DNA of 24,923 nt from a virus. This document shows positions 1,968 to 12,862 of this stretch, piece by piece. The notes beneath the pieces were generated by a model. That model saw only the letters and a list, made by a program, of their open reading frames with translations. It was not told where the DNA came from and ran no database searches. How positions within the stretch are numbered: the stretch's first letter is position 1; each line of letters opens with the position of its first letter. Position numbers and translations under genes: made by a program. The stretch spans positions 1 to 24,923 of IMG/VR virus record IMGVR_UViG_3300032322_002152; one strand, 5' to 3'.

Positions 1968-3680
1968 CTATATCTCCCCATCAAAGAAAAACATATGAAA
2001 TAAACGAGAAGAGGGAATATCCCAACCAAAATATTCAGAGGCAGAATGTATTAACCCACCATTAAATATAATTAGTCTATTAAATACATTACCTATTTTA
2101 TCTATTAATTCATAAGGAGTTCCGTCTAAAAATGTGTGCTGGTTAAATACTTTATTACCTTCTCCGTTTTCCCAATTTATTTCAGAATTGTGTTTTATTT
2201 TAGTTTCTTTATGTCTAAAAAAACTTGTTCCGCATTGAGGGGGGGCGTCAGGTGTAAGATATATCATACCAGCCCATTGTTGTGCATCACAATGATATAC
2301 TAAAGGGGTACCGGCAGTACAAGTTTGGAAACGCCCATTTATTCCCCCATCTTTCCAACCCTGTCCATTTTTGGTATGTTCTGCTATTTTTACACCCATA
2401 ATTTCTTCAAATCTTTCTTTTACGCCTTCAAAAAGAAATTGTTTACGAGTTCTAGAACCTACTGCCCCTTCACCAGGAAAGTAGGTTTGTTGAAGGGCAA
2501 ATTCTCTTACAGCATATGGGTCTTCATAAAAATTATCAACTACAAAAAAAGATTTGCGTTGGTTTTTCATTAAACCAAACTTATTAGTTTCTATAATACC
2601 CCAATCTGAGTCTGGGGTTGGGTCTGTGTAATATAATTTTTTTAATGGTATAATATTTAATATAGGGGGGAATGTGGGCCCTTTTGTAGATTTAGTACAT
2701 AAAATATTAATTTGTTTTTCATGTTTTGGAAGCAAATATTCTTTAACTCTAGGTAATTTAAAAATTTCCTTTGGAAGATTTTCTATAGGGTATTTTTTTA
2801 AAATAGAATTTTTAAACCCAGAAGGGGGAATTTTTCCCTCTTCTGGAAGATCAGATATTAATCTATTTTGGGTTTCTTTAGAATTATATTTGCTATTAAT
2901 TAAAGATTCAAATACATCATCATAATGAACAAAAGATTTAGATTTTTTTATTCTTTTTTTCCCATCCCCCATCCAACTAAAATGCCAACCAAGATCTTGT
3001 ATTATATTTCCATCTTGTACTAAATATTCTATAGGAAATTTATTTGAAACCCCAGATCTAATTTGGGAAGGAGAGGAGATTTTTAGTTGTTTTTTTGTAG
3101 CAAAAAACATACCCCCATCCCAGGATTTAGGAACATTTTCATCTTTAAGATAAACTCTAAGATCTGCTCTTCCTTCAAGATATACTAATGGAATTTTTAT
3201 AATAATTTCTGGATTTTGTTGGCACATACCAGCAACCCATTCAATAGTTTCAGGGTTTATAATTTCATCTGAATCACTGTGGATAAACACCGTATCATCC
3301 TCATAATCATTTAAAACAAGCAAAAGAGAATCTTTTTGCATTCGTTCTCTTACTCTTCCTCTTAATGCATTTAAATTTTTTTGATTTATATTAAATTCAA
3401 AATTATAATTTTCAGCACAACTATATTTATCAATATCTTCTATTATTAGATCAGAGTCTTCGGGTATGTTTAAATCTATAATTTTTATTTTTTCTTGAGG
3501 TAAATTTAATTCTTTAATTCTTTTTCTCAAATTATATTTAATAGGGATGCCACTTTGTGTTTTATTAGATTCACAAATTATGAATTCATCAACATAATCT
3601 TTTAACATATTAATTCTTAATTCAAGAATTTCTTTTCCTGTAGGGTCAAAATAAGGGAAAAAATCTATTATTTTTTTCAT
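1968..3680 (-). CDS. Fusion protein: GT17-like glycosyltransferase plus 2-oxoglutarate/Fe(II) oxygenase-like domain
   Basis: A 570-residue two-domain protein. Residues 1-260 resemble glycosyltransferase family 17 and related enzymes: IIDFFPYFDPTGKEILELR at 4-22, VDEFIICESN at 30-39, a metal-binding-type DSDE at 136-139 in a FIHSDSDEI strand, and GWHFSWMG at 231-238. Residues about 370-570 resemble small phage and marine 2-oxoglutarate/Fe(II) oxygenases (DUF6445-like): VVDNFYEDPYAVREFAL, an HxD pair at H463/D465, a distal histidine H545 in FNGGLIHSAS, and R559 as candidate 2-oxoglutarate ligand. The full HxD...H...R set suggests an active site. The gene is packed 9 nt after a helical-repeat gene and a beta-propeller gene, suggesting one glycan-related unit. 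I infer that it adds and perhaps hydroxylates a sugar or a glycosylated protein; the substrate is unknown. Homopolymer runs are frequent in this gene. Confidence 0.75.
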   Translation of the reverse strand: MKKIIDFFPYFDPTGKEILELRINMLKDYVDEFIICESNKTQSGIPIKYNLRKRIKELNLPQEKIKIIDLNIPEDSDLIIEDIDKYSCAENYNFEFNINQKNLNALRGRVRERMQKDSLLLVLNDYEDDTVFIHSDSDEIINPETIEWVAGMCQQNPEIIIKIPLVYLEGRADLRVYLKDENVPKSWDGGMFFATKKQLKISSPSQIRSGVSNKFPIEYLVQDGNIIQDLGWHFSWMGDGKKRIKKSKSFVHYDDVFESLINSKYNSKETQNRLISDLPEEGKIPPSGFKNSILKKYPIENLPKEIFKLPRVKEYLLPKHEKQINILCTKSTKGPTFPPILNIIPLKKLYYTDPTPDSDWGIIETNKFGLMKNQRKSFFVVDNFYEDPYAVREFALQQTYFPGEGAVGSRTRKQFLFEGVKERFEEIMGVKIAEHTKNGQGWKDGGINGRFQTCTAGTPLVYHCDAQQWAGMIYLTPDAPPQCGTSFFRHKETKIKHNSEINWENGEGNKVFNQHTFLDGTPYELIDKIGNVFNRLIIFNGGLIHSASEYFGWDIPSSRLFHMFFFDGEI

Positions 3681-3689
3681 ATTTTTGAC

Positions 3690-4298
3690 TTATATATTAA
3701 AGTTATTTTTAGTGTAAGGTTTAATGTCCTGAGAAAAAGATTCGATTCCTAATCTCATTAAATTATTTTCAACAGACGTTTTTAGGGTTTCGTCTAATTC
3801 TTCCCAATGTTTAAAAGCTAATTCTTTAAATAATTTTCTACTTTCAGTACTCTTCCCCCACCACCAAGAAGCAAATGCCTTTTGGAATATTAAATTACAT
3901 TTTATATTGTGCCCAAAATAGGTTCTTAGTGGGGGTAAATTAAAATTAGAAATATTTAAACCTATTTCAGCTATTGTATAACATTCAGAATATTCATTTT
4001 TTGCTTCGTATAATTTACTTAATAAGTAATAAGCTTCTGGCCTTTTAGGTAAAATTGTAATAGCTTGTAAATATAATCCCTTTACTGTAAAATCTCTGTT
4101 TTTTTGCTGGATAAAACAGTCTGCCATAAGGAGCAAACATTCATAGGCTAAATTTAAATCTTCTGATCTTTCGGCGGATTTAAGTAAATATGATATGGCT
4201 GGAGAAGTATGGCCTAAATTTTTATAAGCTAATCCCAGTTCATAATTGAATTCTGGGTTATTTGGGTTGCTTATATAATTAATTAATTGTTCATCCAT
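3690..4298 (-). CDS. Tetratricopeptide-repeat-like helical protein
   Basis: A 202-residue, all-helical protein. Residues about 15-50 read as a TPR pair (NYELGLAYKNLGHTSPAISY), and a second repeat lies around 90-115 (RPEAYYLLSKLYEAKNEYSE). Such repeats usually serve as protein-binding scaffolds, and TPR proteins often accompany glycosyltransferases. Its ATG overlaps the TGA of the preceding beta-propeller gene (ATGGATGA, 8 nt), and the glycosyltransferase-oxygenase gene starts 9 nt after its stop, so the three are almost certainly translated from one message. I infer an adaptor role for the two neighbouring proteins. A more specific name is not supportable. Confidence 0.65.
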   Translation of the reverse strand: MDEQLINYISNPNNPEFNYELGLAYKNLGHTSPAISYLLKSAERSEDLNLAYECLLLMADCFIQQKNRDFTVKGLYLQAITILPKRPEAYYLLSKLYEAKNEYSECYTIAEIGLNISNFNLPPLRTYFGHNIKCNLIFQKAFASWWWGKSTESRKLFKELAFKHWEELDETLKTSVENNLMRLGIESFSQDIKPYTKNNFNI

Positions 4299-5280
4299 AA
4301 ATAAAATTTTCTAGAAATTTAGAGGGTATTTTAAGAATATACGATGCATTGTCTTGAAATCCAAAAGTGATTAAATAATTTTCTTTATATTTAGCTAACC
4401 CACATGAAAATTCTACTTTAGCATCTAAAAAAGAAAAATTATCAGAAAATTTAATAATATTCCAACTTTTATCCCAATAAGTAAATCGGTGTCTATAAGT
4501 ACCATCTTTACGCTCTTGTTCCGAGTTATATAAATAAGTTTCATGGTTAAGAGTTAAATAACCATCACCAAATGGGATAACTTGAGATCCTCCTCTTAAA
4601 TCTGCAGACATGTTGCAGTATTGGCCTAAATAAACTTGTTCAGAACGTCCTTCTTCAGGGTAAACCTTTACTATTTCTGTGGGGTTTGTCCATTTTACAA
4701 AATGATAGGGCATATCTAGGATAGGCATCCAATTTTTTTCGCAGTATGAATTTGGATCTTTTGGGGGTTCAATTCTAAAACGAGATATTTCTTTACCATC
4801 TACTATTTCTGAAAGTTCCATTCTACCTTCTCCATTAGGTTTAGTATCTCGCCTAACTCCACACATATAAAGTTTACCATCCCACCTAACTAATCGTGCA
4901 TCTTCTAATCCTATAAATTCCCAAACTGGGGGAATGTCTAGTTTGGAGGTATCTACTTTTTGGTATGATTGGATTTCAAGAGTTATAGGATCTAATTCAC
5001 AAAAATAATTTGTTGTTTTAAGAGTTAAATCATTTTCTGGGTGTAGATATACTAAAGGACCATACTGATGTTCAAATTTATTTAGTTCGGAATGATATAA
5101 AGTATATTGGATATGACGCAAATTAACTAAAACTTTATCATTACATGAACAGAGAGGATCATTATCGATGTAAATTGAAGGATTACATAAACCTGTCCCA
5201 CCTGTATTTTCTGAGGGGATTAATAAAGGTTTTATTGTTCCCCCATTTTCTAAAACTAATTTTACGAAATTATCGATCAT
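4291..5280 (-). CDS. GH130/GH43-like five-bladed beta-propeller protein, possibly glycan-active
   Basis: A 329-residue protein with blade-like strands and motifs of the glycoside hydrolase/phosphorylase beta-propellers: NPSIY at 33-37, GLEDARLVRWDGKLYMCG at 124-141, CEKNWMPI at 180-187, LRGGSQVIPFGDGYLTLNHE at 228-247, YRHRFTYWD at 262-270, VEFSCGLA at 289-296 and FGFQD at 306-310. In GH130 enzymes an acidic residue in the ED-R region acts on mannosides; here E125-D126 with R128 would be the counterpart. Proteins of this kind, often found beside glycosyltransferases, are sometimes non-hydrolytic. There is no signal peptide. It heads a three-gene unit, overlapping the TPR gene by 8 nt. I infer sugar binding or processing; hydrolase, phosphorylase and binding protein all remain possible. 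Confidence 0.6.
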   Translation of the reverse strand: MIDNFVKLVLENGGTIKPLLIPSENTGGTGLCNPSIYIDNDPLCSCNDKVLVNLRHIQYTLYHSELNKFEHQYGPLVYLHPENDLTLKTTNYFCELDPITLEIQSYQKVDTSKLDIPPVWEFIGLEDARLVRWDGKLYMCGVRRDTKPNGEGRMELSEIVDGKEISRFRIEPPKDPNSYCEKNWMPILDMPYHFVKWTNPTEIVKVYPEEGRSEQVYLGQYCNMSADLRGGSQVIPFGDGYLTLNHETYLYNSEQERKDGTYRHRFTYWDKSWNIIKFSDNFSFLDAKVEFSCGLAKYKENYLITFGFQDNASYILKIPSKFLENFIYG

Positions 5281-5294
5281 AACCTTTTAAAAAG

Positions 5295-5543
5295 TTAATC
5301 TTCTATCTTAGTAATTTCACCAGTTTGGGGGTCAATTGAAACTCGACCGTATTTGTTTGTTAATTCTTTAGTATAAACTTGTTCGTCAATCTGTAATTGA
5401 GATAAAAGTTGTTCTGAGTTTTCACGTCTATTTTGGAGTGATAATTTTGCAATCTCAATTTGCCCTAATTCATTAATTAGTGTTTGGCCTCTTTGTTGAA
5501 GTTCTTGAAGTTTTTCTAGTTCTTGTTGTGTTAATCTTTCCAT
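5295..5543 (-). CDS. Small coiled-coil protein, function unknown
   Basis: An 82-residue protein, almost entirely a charged coiled coil over residues 1-62 (ERLTQQELEKLQELQQRG, then LINELGQIEIAKLSLQ), ending in a short strand turn (GRVSIDPQTGEI). I do not recognise the family. It sits between the fibre-like and small virion-type genes and the glycan cassette, so it may be a minor tail protein or an assembly factor. The leader is pure A/T with no Shine-Dalgarno sequence; the minus strand carries TATAAATA 7 nt before the ATG, identical to the T4 late promoter core, but too close for a normal leader. Confidence 0.6.
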   Translation of the reverse strand: MERLTQQELEKLQELQQRGQTLINELGQIEIAKLSLQNRRENSEQLLSQLQIDEQVYTKELTNKYGRVSIDPQTGEITKIED

Positions 5544-5574: not shown

Positions 5575-5922
5575 TTAAACTTCCAAATTATTTTGTTCTT
5601 CTCTAGGTATGCCTATGATTTCAAATGTAGTACTGGGGTAAGTGGCTTGTAAAGAAGCTACTATTTGTTGTGTTATATACAGTAAGTATTTATTTACTAC
5701 ACCATTTCCATCGTTATTAGGTTCAGATGGTGAATTTGCAATGTAAAACGGTAAACAAGCAATGTATTGAGCACCATCGGCGTATGCCTGTTGTGACGGA
5801 TACATAAAGCAGTCTACAGGTGTGTCTGTGCCGTTTAATGGAAGATGTAAAACTAAACGGAAATATGGGTTTGAATATGTTCCGTAGTTGTATTCAAGGG
5901 GGGTTGTTGCTTGTATTGCCAT
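5575..5922 (-). CDS. Small protein of the neck/tail gene block, function unknown
   Basis: A 115-residue protein that I do not recognise. It has a strand-rich N-terminal half (NPYFRLVLHLPLNGTDTPVD), a central FYIANSPSEPNNDGNG loop, and a helix (LLYITQQIVASLQATYP) followed by a strand TTFEIIGIPRE. The hydrophobic stretches are amphipathic and not membrane segments. It lies 13 nt after the fibre-like gene and 31 nt before the coiled-coil gene, within virion genes. It might be an assembly factor for the fibre or a minor virion protein. The start is preceded by TTAATTAACT with no Shine-Dalgarno sequence. Confidence 0.55.
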   Translation of the reverse strand: MAIQATTPLEYNYGTYSNPYFRLVLHLPLNGTDTPVDCFMYPSQQAYADGAQYIACLPFYIANSPSEPNNDGNGVVNKYLLYITQQIVASLQATYPSTTFEIIGIPREEQNNLEV

Positions 5923-5935
5923 AGTTAATTAAAGT

Positions 5936-6733
5936 TTAAAATAATGCGGTCCACGATGAACCATTCCAAAAATAAGGTTTTAAATTAGCACCGCTTCCGC
6001 TTGTAGCAAATGAAGCAGACGGTATATTTGATGTAGGAAGAGGATTTATAGGTGATAAGGTCATTATAGCTGAAGCTCCGCTTATATGGAGTTGTGAGTT
6101 TGGGGTTGAAGTCCCAATACCTACATTACCGTCATTTCTTACAACTAACGAGGCTGATGCATTGCTATTTTCTACTCTTAATGCGGTTGTTGCTGATGTT
6201 GCCCCACTGCCTTTTATTTCTAGTTTTGCAGATGGTGAGCTTTCTCCAATTCCTACAAAACCAGTAGAACCTACAATTCTCATTATTTCGGGTTGTGTTA
6301 TTGCTCCGGCATAAAATGATAAATCATTTGTTCCAAAAACACCACCAGCATCTGATAGCATATATGCTGTGGTGTGCCCAAAACTTGAGCTTGGGACTCC
6401 TACTCCCGTGTTGCTATATCTAATAAAGGGAGAAAAAGTACCTAAATTATTACCACCAATTGCAAATCCTGAATTGATATTTATATTGCCGCCCGCAACA
6501 GTTAGGGTTGATAATGGGGTTGTTGTTCCTACACCTATGTTTCCACTTGAACTTATATACAAGTAAGTAGATGAACCACTTTGTACTTTAAAAGTATCAG
6601 TACCTATATTTACCGAAGCAGTTATACTACCTGTTGAAATAAAAGAAGAATTTAAAATAGTTTCTCCCCCGCTTTCTCCCCCATTAATAGTATTTACTAA
6701 TATTTGGTCTAAAAATCTGATGTTACTAGCCAT
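5936..6733 (-). CDS. Fibre-like virion protein with VGIGTxTP-type repeats
   Basis: A 265-residue Ser/Gly/Thr/Asn-rich protein. Three degenerate copies of the repeat G-(N/F)-(I/V)-G-(V/I)-G-x-x-(T/S)-P-x-(S/A)-x-L-x-(V/I) occur at about 64-81, 158-175 and 202-219 (cores GNIGVGTTTP, GFVGIGESSP, GNVGIGTSTP). Such repeats are common in fibre and surface proteins of phages and bacteria of the Bacteroidota and probably form beta-helical or trimeric shafts. The end, PYFWNGSSWTALF, resembles the usual C-terminal 'NGSxW' closing motif of these proteins. It has no recognisable chaperone domain. It follows the gp15-like gene by 5 nt. I infer a short tail or neck fibre; the attachment point is unknown. 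Confidence 0.7.
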   Translation of the reverse strand: MASNIRFLDQILVNTINGGESGGETILNSSFISTGSITASVNIGTDTFKVQSGSSTYLYISSSGNIGVGTTTPLSTLTVAGGNININSGFAIGGNNLGTFSPFIRYSNTGVGVPSSSFGHTTAYMLSDAGGVFGTNDLSFYAGAITQPEIMRIVGSTGFVGIGESSPSAKLEIKGSGATSATTALRVENSNASASLVVRNDGNVGIGTSTPNSQLHISGASAIMTLSPINPLPTSNIPSASFATSGSGANLKPYFWNGSSWTALF

Positions 6734-9661: not shown

Positions 9662-11434
9662 TTATTTTTTCGAACCGCTGTTTGTTAAACTAATTCCGCT
9701 TTCGTATGCGTCTTCATAGTATGCTATTAAATCTTCTACTATTGGGTTTCTGTGGTTTGTTTTAAGCGATATTGCGGCTAAGTTTTTAATTTTTTTAGAA
9801 GCAGTATATAAAAACCTAAACCCAGAATCGCGTTTATTTTTTAAGTCTACTTGGTTATCGTCACCACAAATTATCATCTTAGAACGTAAACCTAAACGGG
9901 TTACAATCATTTCCATTTGTTCGTGGGTAACGTTTTGAGCTTCGTCTACTATGACAATTGAATCTAAGAAAGTGTTATGAGTTACTATAAAATTGTTAGT
10001 AAGATACAAATGTTCTTTTGAATCTACTAAAATACATTGAGCCTCTTTTTCTCCTATATACTCTATTTTGTCTATGGTTCTATAAATATTTGTAGTATTT
10101 TGATAAAGGTTGTGTTTGCGCTTTAATTTAAAAGGATTAATTGTAGAAGGTAATATTATATTTATTCTAAAACAATCGTAATTGTTTTTTATTGTTTGAT
10201 TTTTCCAATAAGTTACTTCTCCCTTTTTTCTACATATTTTTGGAGAAGTACATGTCCCCCCCAAAGAATTTACTATTTCTGTAACATCTTCTATCAATTG
10301 TAAACTAGTGGAGTTAAAATTAATTCTACAAGTATTATTAGGATGAACCCCAATATCTCCATCAGTATCTAATATACCCCTTAATATTTCTAATCGTGTA
10401 TTAATAGAATTATATTTGTATATAGGTGGGATAAATTTATTATTTGATTTAGTTCCTAATAAATCTAAATTTTCAAGATAATGGGTTAATAAATTATTTC
10501 TATCTTGAGAACTTAATCTATAATCATAATTATCTCCTTTTATTTTATTTATAACATAATTATCAGGAAGATTAAAATATTCTAATATTTCAGTATCATT
10601 AGTAGAAAAAGTAGGAGATACTCCTTTAGTTATACTACCGTCCCCTATTAAACACCCCAAAGTGTATGGATCGATAGGAACTTCTTTTTTATCAAATTGT
10701 ACCGATGAAGATATAATAGGTATTTTATATTTTCGTTGTCCTCCTTTTGTTTTTATGTTATCTTTAAATTGTTTTAGTTCTAATGTTTTATATATTGGGT
10801 TTTTAGAATTATTTTTGGCTATATTCCATAAATGTTCATCACAACATTCTGTACAAGACCCATCTGAAAAATGAATTTTGTATATAGATTTTAGACCTTG
10901 AGGAAATACTTCTAATACTTTAATTGGTTCTCCTTTAATGCCTATTACATTATCTCCTTTTTTTATATCCCTCATATATTTTGGTCCTTCAGGAGTATAT
11001 ATAATAGAATCTAAAGGTTGGGCTCGACCTCGCATAAAACTAACCGGTACTATCTCGATATCGCCTTCCTGTATGTGTTTTTCTATTTTTACTCGGTCAT
11101 ACAATGCGTACATGTTTTGGTATATGGGTTGTACCCAAGGGTCCATTTTCTCGCGTAAATCACCAGGTAAAAACCCAATTTCTTCTTTTGATACTGTGGG
11201 GCGTGTTATGATTATTTTTTCAACTTCTTTCATAAATAGCTTTTCTAATGCTATTTGACATGCTAAAAGTGTTTTACCTGAACCAGCAGAACCTGCTAAT
11301 AATGTGACTGTATTTTCTAGTATTTTAGATTTGGCTTCTTTCTGTTCTTGATTTAGTTCTATTTTAAATTTTATAGGGTTTTTAGGTTTACGTTTTTCTT
11401 GGAATATTTCATCTTCGTGGGAGTGGGAAGTCAT
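9662..11434 (-). CDS. phoH: PhoH-like P-loop ATPase interrupted in frame by an intein
   Basis: A 590-residue precursor. The host protein is residues 1-137 plus 488-590 (240 aa), a PhoH/ribonuclease-associated P-loop ATPase, a gene common in marine and environmental phages with an unsettled role, possibly RNA metabolism or phosphate stress. Walker A is GSAGSGKT at 48-55, ITRPTVSKEEIGFLPGD at 76-92 is the PhoH signature, Walker B is IVIVDEAQN at 493-501, ICGDDNQVD lies at 522-530, and LKTNHR is near 557-562. The intein (138-487) splits the conserved MRGR/TFLDS motif, so splicing must occur for activity. The gene is 24 nt after the fibre-like gene and 39 nt before gp13. Placement among virion genes is notable. 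Confidence 0.93.
   Translation of the reverse strand: MTSHSHEDEIFQEKRKPKNPIKFKIELNQEQKEAKSKILENTVTLLAGSAGSGKTLLACQIALEKLFMKEVEKIIITRPTVSKEEIGFLPGDLREKMDPWVQPIYQNMYALYDRVKIEKHIQEGDIEIVPVSFMRGRAQPLDSIIYTPEGPKYMRDIKKGDNVIGIKGEPIKVLEVFPQGLKSIYKIHFSDGSCTECCDEHLWNIAKNNSKNPIYKTLELKQFKDNIKTKGGQRKYKIPIISSSVQFDKKEVPIDPYTLGCLIGDGSITKGVSPTFSTNDTEILEYFNLPDNYVINKIKGDNYDYRLSSQDRNNLLTHYLENLDLLGTKSNNKFIPPIYKYNSINTRLEILRGILDTDGDIGVHPNNTCRINFNSTSLQLIEDVTEIVNSLGGTCTSPKICRKKGEVTYWKNQTIKNNYDCFRINIILPSTINPFKLKRKHNLYQNTTNIYRTIDKIEYIGEKEAQCILVDSKEHLYLTNNFIVTHNTFLDSIVIVDEAQNVTHEQMEMIVTRLGLRSKMIICGDDNQVDLKNKRDSGFRFLYTASKKIKNLAAISLKTNHRNPIVEDLIAYYEDAYESGISLTNSGSKK
9974..11023 (-). mobile_element. Intein with LAGLIDADG homing endonuclease, class 3 (Trp-Cys-Thr) signature
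   Basis: This is an in-frame insert of 350 residues (precursor 138-487). It starts with Ala138, not Cys or Ser, as AQPLDSIIYTPEG, and ends IVTHN at Asn487, followed by Thr488. Block B has H201-L-W203, block F has Cys467 in the AQCILV strand where most inteins have Asp, and block G has Thr485 before His486-Asn487. The set Trp, Cys at F:4, and Thr before the penultimate His is the known signature of class 3 inteins, which use the block F cysteine as first nucleophile. A two-motif LAGLIDADG endonuclease lies inside (LGCLIGDG at 259-266, LRGILDTDG at 351-359). The insert is visibly more AT-rich than the flanking exteins. Confidence 0.88.
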
Positions 11435-11458: not shown

Positions 11459-12862
11459 TTAAGAAACTTGAGTTAAAGTTGCTATAACAGAAGGAATAGA
11501 GGGATAATTTCCTGATGCAGGGTCAAAAACTAATTGCATATTAATATCATCAGATTGCCATATAATTTCGATATAATCATTTGCTACTAAATTTTCTACA
11601 TAATTCCAGGCAGCAACAAATCTACCACTACCTCCTGCTTGTTTTAACACATCAATAGAAGTAGTTGAACGAGGAATATTTGTTCCGTTTTTCTTAAACC
11701 ATATGTAAACAGTATCTACACCATTGTCTGTTTTTTCTAGCTGAGCAGAAAATTGAAGATTATATACCCCGGGATGGGCTACAGTAATTCTACTGCCACT
11801 TACAATTGATACACCATCAGATAATTCTGTAGTTTCTAACTGCATTGAACGGGATACGTTAGGTATAGGGTTTGTTTGGGAACCTGTAGAACAGAATGCC
11901 CCATAAAAGCCAAAACTACCTGTTGTATAAAAGCCCCCTGAGATGGCAAGAGTAGCTAAAGGAACTGCAACACTTCTATTAGATGAGTTTCCTAACCAAA
12001 CATAGTTTTGTTGCAAGGAGGCAGAGAATGCTCCACTTACAAATAAGCCGGTTGTATCTATTGTAGCAACTAAACTTCTACTAACAGCTCCATTAGCATA
12101 AGTATAAAAAGCTGCTCTACTACCATAACTAGATGTTGAGTAATTTTCTGTTGCTTGAAACTCTAATGATGTTGGGGTAGCCCCCACTACTGGAAAATAG
12201 CTGCTTGTTGCATAACCTAATCCTGCTAATCTAACTAGTACATCTCCTGATAGGGTTGGGGTGGGAGTTGTGGCTGTTCCTCGAGCTTGTCTGCCTGCAA
12301 AAATAGCACCTATATTTGTTCCAAATCCATCAACAGTTACTCGTGCGGCTTGATTATCGTTACTTGTAATGTGAATCATACCAGAGGGGTTAATTACTGG
12401 TTGGTATGAACCTGATGGGTTTCCTATGATACTAAATGCTCCAATATCTCCAGCCGGGATATTAGGGACTCTTATAATTGTTCTAGCAGTTTCTGAGATT
12501 TCAAATGGTATAAATGAACCGCTTTTTAATTGAAAACCTGCGGCTTCAATTGTCACATTACCATCCTCATTTGAAATTGATGCACGTATACCACCCGGAA
12601 TGTCACTTTCAATATTAATTGAACCGGACTGTAAATATATTTCTCTAAAGGGTTGAGTTAAGGATCCCAAATTAGCGCCCTGTGGGGTAGCAGGAACAAT
12701 ATCTCCTGATAGAGTTATACCACTAGAGGTTAATGATAAATTTGCATCTAAAATATCTTGAACAATAGCTTGAGTAGTAACTCCCCCTTGAACAAGGGGT
12801 AAGACTTCGGTTCCATTTAGTGCTGATGCTAAGGGGAGTTGTGATATTGGTAAATTTGGCAT
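11459..12862 (-). CDS. Fibre-like virion protein with C1q/TNF-like C-terminal domain
   Basis: A 467-residue protein. The N-terminus (LPISQLPLASALNGTEVLPL, 4-23, then VQGGVTTQAIVQDIL) is the usual start of fibre-like or appendage proteins in T4-like environmental phages. The middle is Ser/Gly-rich with shaft-like strands. Residues about 314-467 look like a C1q/TNF-type jelly roll: a strand near IVSGSRITVAHPGVYNLQFS, then DTVYIWFKKNGTNIPRS, and VANDYIEIIWQSDD near the end. Such trimeric heads bind ligands or host surfaces. The ATG overlaps the stop of the preceding 90-aa gene (TAATG). I infer an adsorption or decoration fibre; the position after the capsid genes also allows a head fibre. Confidence 0.7.
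   Translation of the reverse strand: MPNLPISQLPLASALNGTEVLPLVQGGVTTQAIVQDILDANLSLTSSGITLSGDIVPATPQGANLGSLTQPFREIYLQSGSINIESDIPGGIRASISNEDGNVTIEAAGFQLKSGSFIPFEISETARTIIRVPNIPAGDIGAFSIIGNPSGSYQPVINPSGMIHITSNDNQAARVTVDGFGTNIGAIFAGRQARGTATTPTPTLSGDVLVRLAGLGYATSSYFPVVGATPTSLEFQATENYSTSSYGSRAAFYTYANGAVSRSLVATIDTTGLFVSGAFSASLQQNYVWLGNSSNRSVAVPLATLAISGGFYTTGSFGFYGAFCSTGSQTNPIPNVSRSMQLETTELSDGVSIVSGSRITVAHPGVYNLQFSAQLEKTDNGVDTVYIWFKKNGTNIPRSTTSIDVLKQAGGSGRFVAAWNYVENLVANDYIEIIWQSDDINMQLVFDPASGNYPSIPSVIATLTQVS

Follow-up and report, generated by a model that had tools for sequence, protein, structure and literature searches.

Sugars on phage virions are already known, and so are islands of glycosyltransferase genes beside fibre genes. 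Freeman et al. (2023, cited in PMC12619734) reportedly described glycans on structural proteins of mycobacteriophages, namely the capsid and the tail tube. The locus considered here is a cassette of three genes in a myovirus genome fragment, the 24.9-kb virus record IMGVR_UViG_3300032322_002152 of IMG/VR (the whole stretch analysed, hereafter the window), coding for a five-bladed propeller (P0003), a TPR protein (P0002), and a GT17–DUF6445 fusion (P0001). It shares with the mycobacteriophage system the theme of phage glycans on structural proteins, reported there and deduced from genes here; we know of no propeller–TPR core or module exchange in mycobacteriophages. In our judgement, the chances are about even that the cassette encodes a soluble, modular glycan-assembly system acting on the phage's own virion proteins, most likely the tail fibres.

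Several described systems are comparable with the cassette or with its parts. The host recognition cluster of pelagimyophages, bordered by VrlC and gp14, is likewise a hypervariable island within the structural genes, where fibres and collagen repeats are accompanied by glycosyltransferases and radical-SAM cassettes (PMC7029224). However, the accessible part of that account describes it as serving lipopolysaccharide (LPS) modification and names neither a propeller–TPR core nor a plug-in slot. As regards location, each of the 18 other propeller loci with a sheath homologue (four of them close siblings of the window) has it downstream of the cassette and on the same strand, fibres are often found upstream, and the window cassette is situated downstream of a neck gene. 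Mimivirus L230, a collagen hydroxylase–glycosyltransferase of reported activity (PMC9614988), and human LH3/PLOD3 resemble P0001 in the fusion of an N-terminal GT-A-type transferase to a C-terminal 2-oxoglutarate (2OG) oxygenase, and collagen-like virion proteins are encoded near many cassette relatives; nevertheless, the cassette families are GT17 and DUF6445, and the oxygenase is not statistically tied to collagen-like neighbours. The propeller has in common with GH130 and GT108 enzymes (the latter comprising the Leishmania MPTs) the five-bladed fold, which spans the entire protein (Z 24 for GH130 and about 19 for GT108), and the aligned GxED and C-terminal xxD motifs, but it is only 14–16% identical to them, has no Pfam match, and belongs to a set of viral proteins with a TPR gene alongside.

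The propeller family is carried by at least 599 IMG/VR stretches. Loci were retrieved by similarity to the window proteins, and the frequencies given here are those among the nearest 80 of these relatives, with ORFs (open reading frames) called mechanically and a threshold of E < 1e-3 for TPR relatives in a set of about 5,700 ORFs; many of the contigs are fragmentary, and the metagenomic ones have no known host. A TPR relative is located downstream, on the same strand, of 86 of the 92 distinct propellers, a recurrence that takes the pairing beyond chance. The two genes are adjacent or fused in 68 of the 92 loci, and exactly the 8-nt overlap seen in the window is found in 30. Four of the six exceptions reach a contig edge within 2.1 kb, while the real ones are L013, with a propeller and DUF6445, and the distant DSL-LC01 protein (L160). 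Among full-length cassette-like loci, only L013:8526–10552 has no TPR gene. Moreover, the propeller and the TPR protein co-evolve, since their pairwise identities correlate in a mirror-tree comparison with r of 0.81 (permutation maximum 0.11), compared with 0.47 for the propeller and DUF6445 and 0.50 for the propeller and GT17. The 8-nt overlap suggests that the pair is translationally coupled. In other loci the TPR domain is fused, at its N- or C-terminal side, to GT2, GT17, GT25, FkbM or other methyltransferases, radical SAM/SPASM, or DUF6445, and it is proposed to be a hub or a substrate holder.

The AlphaFold2 model of P0003 (pLDDT 92.7) is a five-bladed propeller, with GH130 mannoside phosphorylases as the top fold matches (Z 22–24 over 265–280 aligned residues), followed by the Leishmania GDP-mannose transferases (Z 18–19) and GH43 (about 18). 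The Pfam GH130 model matches 21 of 68 propeller relatives at E ≤ 0.01 (best 4.8e-6) but not the window propeller, which is therefore termed a relative, not a member, of GH130/GT108. In PDB profile searches, neither the propeller alignment nor a distant single relative retrieved a true relative at the sequence level, so that the placement of the propeller depends on fold comparison and on the Pfam matches of some relatives. Fifty positions are invariant across 66 propeller sequences, GLED127AR among them; it aligns with GGEDPR of GH130 enzymes from bacterial genomes, and the C-terminal xxD motif with its GH130/GT108 counterpart, in a global profile alignment that was forced, the local one covering the C-terminal part only. 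The aspartate of the GxED motif is the catalytic residue in GH130. As both the GH130/GT108 fold (Z 24) and the catalytic motif are retained, the propeller is likelier to be an enzyme than a binder, most likely a mannoside-type enzyme of a divergent sister group to GH130/GT108. The earlier note on this DNA, made from its letters alone, had supposed that the propeller binds or trims the sugar; the conserved GH130/GT108-type core of the model makes sugar addition, or phosphorolysis, the likelier activity. A marginal match of the window propeller to Pfam SPASM (E 0.04) is regarded as due to chance; genuine radical-SAM/SPASM domains are located in other cassettes.

The third gene behaves differently from the core pair. 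The enzymes encoded around the core comprise GT2, GT17, GT25, GT11, GT47, FkbM and other methyltransferases, radical SAM/SPASM, and DUF6445, and in the third slot GT17, GT2, GT25, FkbM, radical-SAM/SPASM enzymes, and 2OG oxygenases substitute for one another, often fused to TPR. GT17 and DUF6445 are also found apart from the propeller and TPR genes, so that independent occurrence is a property of gene 3 and not of genes 1 and 2. A fixed three-gene unit is ruled out by this interchangeable slot, and of the supposition that the three genes stay together in other phages only the part concerning the first two holds. Both domains of P0001 preserve their catalytic residues: the DxD-type metal motif of GT17, D136xD138E, is present in 100% of 73 relatives, and the iron triad and 2OG-binding arginine of DUF6445 (H463xD465, H545, and R559) in 97–100% of 40. 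The DUF6445 domain matches phrog_1644 (E 1.5e-32), a family of cyanophage proteins named 'minor coat protein', which represent the same oxygenase family as the C-terminus of P0001 but are encoded by stand-alone genes without the core pair. Synechococcus phage S-SCSM2R (L158) has a second, stand-alone DUF6445 gene (147072–147623 of its record) and several other 2OG oxygenases.

The fold of the DUF6445 domain is the double-stranded beta-helix of a 2OG oxygenase, with prolyl hydroxylases, including the viral collagen prolyl hydroxylase vCPH, as the nearest structures (Z 12–14). This, together with the L230/LH3-like order of a transferase followed by a 2OG hydroxylase, the many cassettes with collagen-like ORFs just upstream, and a Foldseek alignment of P0001 with the full length of LH3 (E 3e-6, though TM 0.2), would suit a collagen-type modification, a special case of the virion reading in which the oxygenase hydroxylates Lys or Pro of collagen-like fibres and the fused transferase glycosylates the hydroxyl. 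We regard it as improbable: the window is devoid of a collagen-like repeat, the domain families are not those of L230 and LH3, and DUF6445 is present in five of 18 cassettes beside collagen-like ORFs and in 20 of 48 others, i.e., it is not enriched there (P 0.40). Collagen-specific hydroxylation is thus unsupported.

The exchange of modules can be followed among sibling phages. L011 and L012 share 97–98% nucleotide identity with the window across the sheath gene and the DUF6445 domain and, on the other side, across the gp15-like and neck genes, yet between these near-identical flanks the segment from 2634 to about 5280 is divergent. Their propeller is 72% identical in amino acid sequence to that of the window, their TPR sequence, 43% identical, is part of a longer protein, and an FkbM methyltransferase and two further genes occupy the place of GT17, with DUF6445 encoded by a separate ORF (96%). 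The blastn breakpoint at 2634 falls within the low-confidence linker of P0001, at residue 349. In L010 the identity, 98%, extends to 2632, and DUF6445 is again encoded by an ORF of its own; the sheath protein of L010 and L011 is 98–99% identical to that of the window, and L161 and L162 hold further variants at the same spot. The sheath, neck, and gp15-like genes of L013 are only 33–55% alike to those of the window, yet the two have in common the 115-aa fibre-side protein (94%) and DUF6445 (93%), which indicates horizontal exchange. The third slot and the fibre genes turn over quickly, which could also mean that the cassette is cargo carried at a hot spot of recombination next to the fibres and has no coherent joint function, but the invariance of catalytic residues across deep divergence, the near-constancy of the core pair, and the coupled evolution of its two members make this very unlikely.

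The place of the cassette among virion genes is conserved; homologues of the window virion genes are found in none of 37 GT17 loci without a propeller (controls that are fewer and often shorter). Collagen-like ORFs are present in 29 of 92 propeller loci and in none of the 37 controls (P 1.4e-5), and in 18 of the 67 loci with enough sequence such an ORF ends within 2.5 kb upstream. In collagen-bearing loci, the propeller lies within 1 kb of the collagen-like ORF in 14 cases, compared with 6.6 expected for a random gene (P 0.001). Among 20 sampled nearest upstream genes, four code for Pfam collagen repeats and three for an S74 fibre chaperone domain, while several encode sugar enzymes or metabolic enzymes. 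The cassette of DSL-LC02, a cyanophage assembled from a metagenome, is inverted and flanked by two fibre genes.

The main rival to a virion target, less probable in our view but to be taken seriously, is remodelling of the host surface, in which the enzymes would alter a glycan at the surface of the infected cell (LPS, capsule, or other) and thereby keep competing phages from adsorbing or progeny from sticking to debris; fibre adjacency would then mean that a fibre is inherited together with the exclusion enzymes that match it. S-SCSM2R and DSL-LC02 hold separate large sugar clusters (with epimerases and KdsA/KdsB or GDP-mannose dehydratase), and rapid cassette exchange also suits receptor competition. 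On the other hand, cassette proteins are nearly free of membrane-like segments (three of 267, compared with 156 of 2,504 genes overall; Kyte–Doolittle scan maximum 0.91 for the window proteins), unlike Gtr-type serotype conversion, which needs a membrane-bound flippase and transferase. The 25 most frequent Pfam families of each set include no flippase, polymerase, or lipid-carrier enzyme, and a conserved place in a late structural block would be unusual for an early exclusion function. Several points weigh against the reading as a virion-glycan system. Similar islands of pelagimyophages (PMC7029224, in its accessible part) and sugar clusters of jumbo cyanophages (PMC7824862) have been interpreted in terms of the host surface. 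In many cassettes the nearest upstream gene is not a recognised fibre, the window fragment encodes no collagen-like protein or repeat, and siblings L011 and L162 do not have the neighbouring 115-aa and fibre-like genes at this place. The lack of a Pfam GH130 match to the window propeller counts in the same direction.

The earlier note's common glycan role for the cassette is thus supported in part, by the co-evolving core pair, the company of glycan enzymes, and the conserved place among virion genes, but not for a fixed trio, and the virion would be the target. As the core pair recurs, often next to tail genes, with a changing choice of enzymes that add or modify sugars, we propose that these phages probably build custom sugar coats, most likely on their own tail fibres. 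The propeller enzyme of the core would probably transfer a mannose-type sugar, and the TPR protein, translated together with it, would bridge the partners or hold the substrate. The exchangeable transferases, methyltransferases, radical-SAM/SPASM enzymes, and 2OG oxygenases would determine the glycan structure; in the window fusion, GT17 would add a sugar and the DUF6445 oxygenase hydroxylate the acceptor protein or the sugar. The cassette is presumably expressed late, and virion (fibre) proteins would be the acceptors. A set of soluble transferases, encoded among the tail genes together with a repeat-protein hub, fits direct cytoplasmic glycosylation of virion proteins.

GT17 and GH130/GT108 enzymes act on glycans, which argues against DNA hypermodification, i.e., the placing of sugars on phage DNA bases by the transferases and the oxygenase. 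DNA glucosylation is a common assignment for phage glycosyltransferases and is suggested for another transferase of DSL-LC02 in the Dishui Lake paper (PMC10611076), and some 2OG oxygenases act on nucleic acids, but the nearest folds of the cassette oxygenase are protein and amino-acid hydroxylases, and the cassette is situated in the tail block, away from replication genes; we give this explanation very little weight.

It is possible, and we put it forward tentatively, that a soluble system of this kind represents a new class of phage protein-glycosylation machines, with a constant mannosyltransferase-propeller/TPR scaffold hub and modules swapped by recombination, also at domain linkers. A literature search found no description of a constant propeller–TPR core with a plug-in slot, no paper with DUF6445, and none joining GT108, GH130, and mannosyltransferase. 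If the proposal is true, near-identical phages display different tail-fibre glycans owing to module swaps. S-SCSM2R, which carries the cassette and grows on Synechococcus WH7803, makes glycosylation of aquatic phage fibres and glycan change by module exchange testable.

In named phage records the propeller is found in three of 50,697, one being distant and without a TPR gene, and this near absence from named phages of a family common in environmental ones may explain why the propeller–TPR pair has no name; with its 8-nt overlap the pair can serve as a marker for locating phage glycan loci. A scan of 84,980 bacterial and archaeal species genomes gave a single propeller match, L165:2206–3661, on a 3.7-kb contig binned as Chitinophagaceae, where the propeller and TPR genes adjoin glycosyltransferase-like genes. 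This contig is probably phage DNA in the bin, and so no cellular source of the propeller is known. Structure matches in BFVD place the same type of propeller in proteins of Pithovirus LCPAC, Solivirus, Indivirus, and Ectocarpus virus, some of the giant-virus chains being annotated as fucosyltransferase or LicD, which hints at a wider viral glycan role.

Table 1. Coordinates of the cassette, its domains and junctions, and the bordering genes in the window
Feature	Positions	Strand	Details
P0003, propeller gene	4291–5280	−	329 aa
P0002, TPR gene	3690–4298	−	202 aa
P0001, GT17–DUF6445 fusion gene	1968–3680	−	570 aa
GT17 domain, residues 1–320 of P0001	2721–3680	−	Pfam 42.8 bits, cut-off 26, E 4.5e-11
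Linker between GT17 and DUF6445, residues 323–368	2577–2714	−	pLDDT below 50
DUF6445 2OG-Fe(II) oxygenase domain, residues 369–570 and stop codon	1968–2576	−	Pfam 45.9 bits, cut-off 24, E 8.5e-12
Propeller/TPR start–stop overlap	4291–4298	−	8 nt
TPR/P0001 gap	3681–3689	−	9 nt
Tail sheath gene, conserved downstream border	216–1919	−	phrog_23 E 7e-69 and two Pfam sheath domains
82-aa gene, upstream border kept in siblings	5295–5543	−	100% aa identity in L011; 82% in L161/L162/L164
115-aa protein gene	5575–5922	−	adjacent to cassette
Fibre-like protein gene	5936–6733	−	tail-fibre PHROG matches

The genes of the window are on the minus strand and comprise those for terminase, portal, major head protein, PhoH, a neck-type protein, and a fibre, followed by the cassette, the sheath gene, and the first part of a gene that probably encodes the tube. 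The layout of the three cassette genes between the fibre/gp15-like block and the sheath, with their overlap and gap, agrees with what had been noted from the letters, and the domain calls are borne out for TPR (Pfam TPR_17, E 1e-7), GT17, DUF6445, and the propeller. Upstream of the cassette, the 82-aa, 115-aa, and fibre-like genes are followed by a 368-aa gene whose 'gp15-like' label could not be confirmed, no family match being convincing. Named phages have no near relative of the first 10 kb of the window, an Rfam search of the window gave zero matches, and promoter-like matches in it do not exceed the shuffle level.

The PhoH-like gene (9662–11434) has an in-frame interruption of about 1.05 kb at about 9974–11024, intein-like and with a homing-endonuclease-type domain (motifs LGCLIGDG, GILDTDGD, and VTHNT, the last at its end). 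The insert is polymorphic, as PhoH (240 aa) is uninterrupted in L011, the sibling with 97–98% identity. A second variable spot is found at 11459–12862, where the match of a 467-aa protein to L011 is short and partial, 53% over 38 aa, while the genes around it are nearly identical in the two phages.

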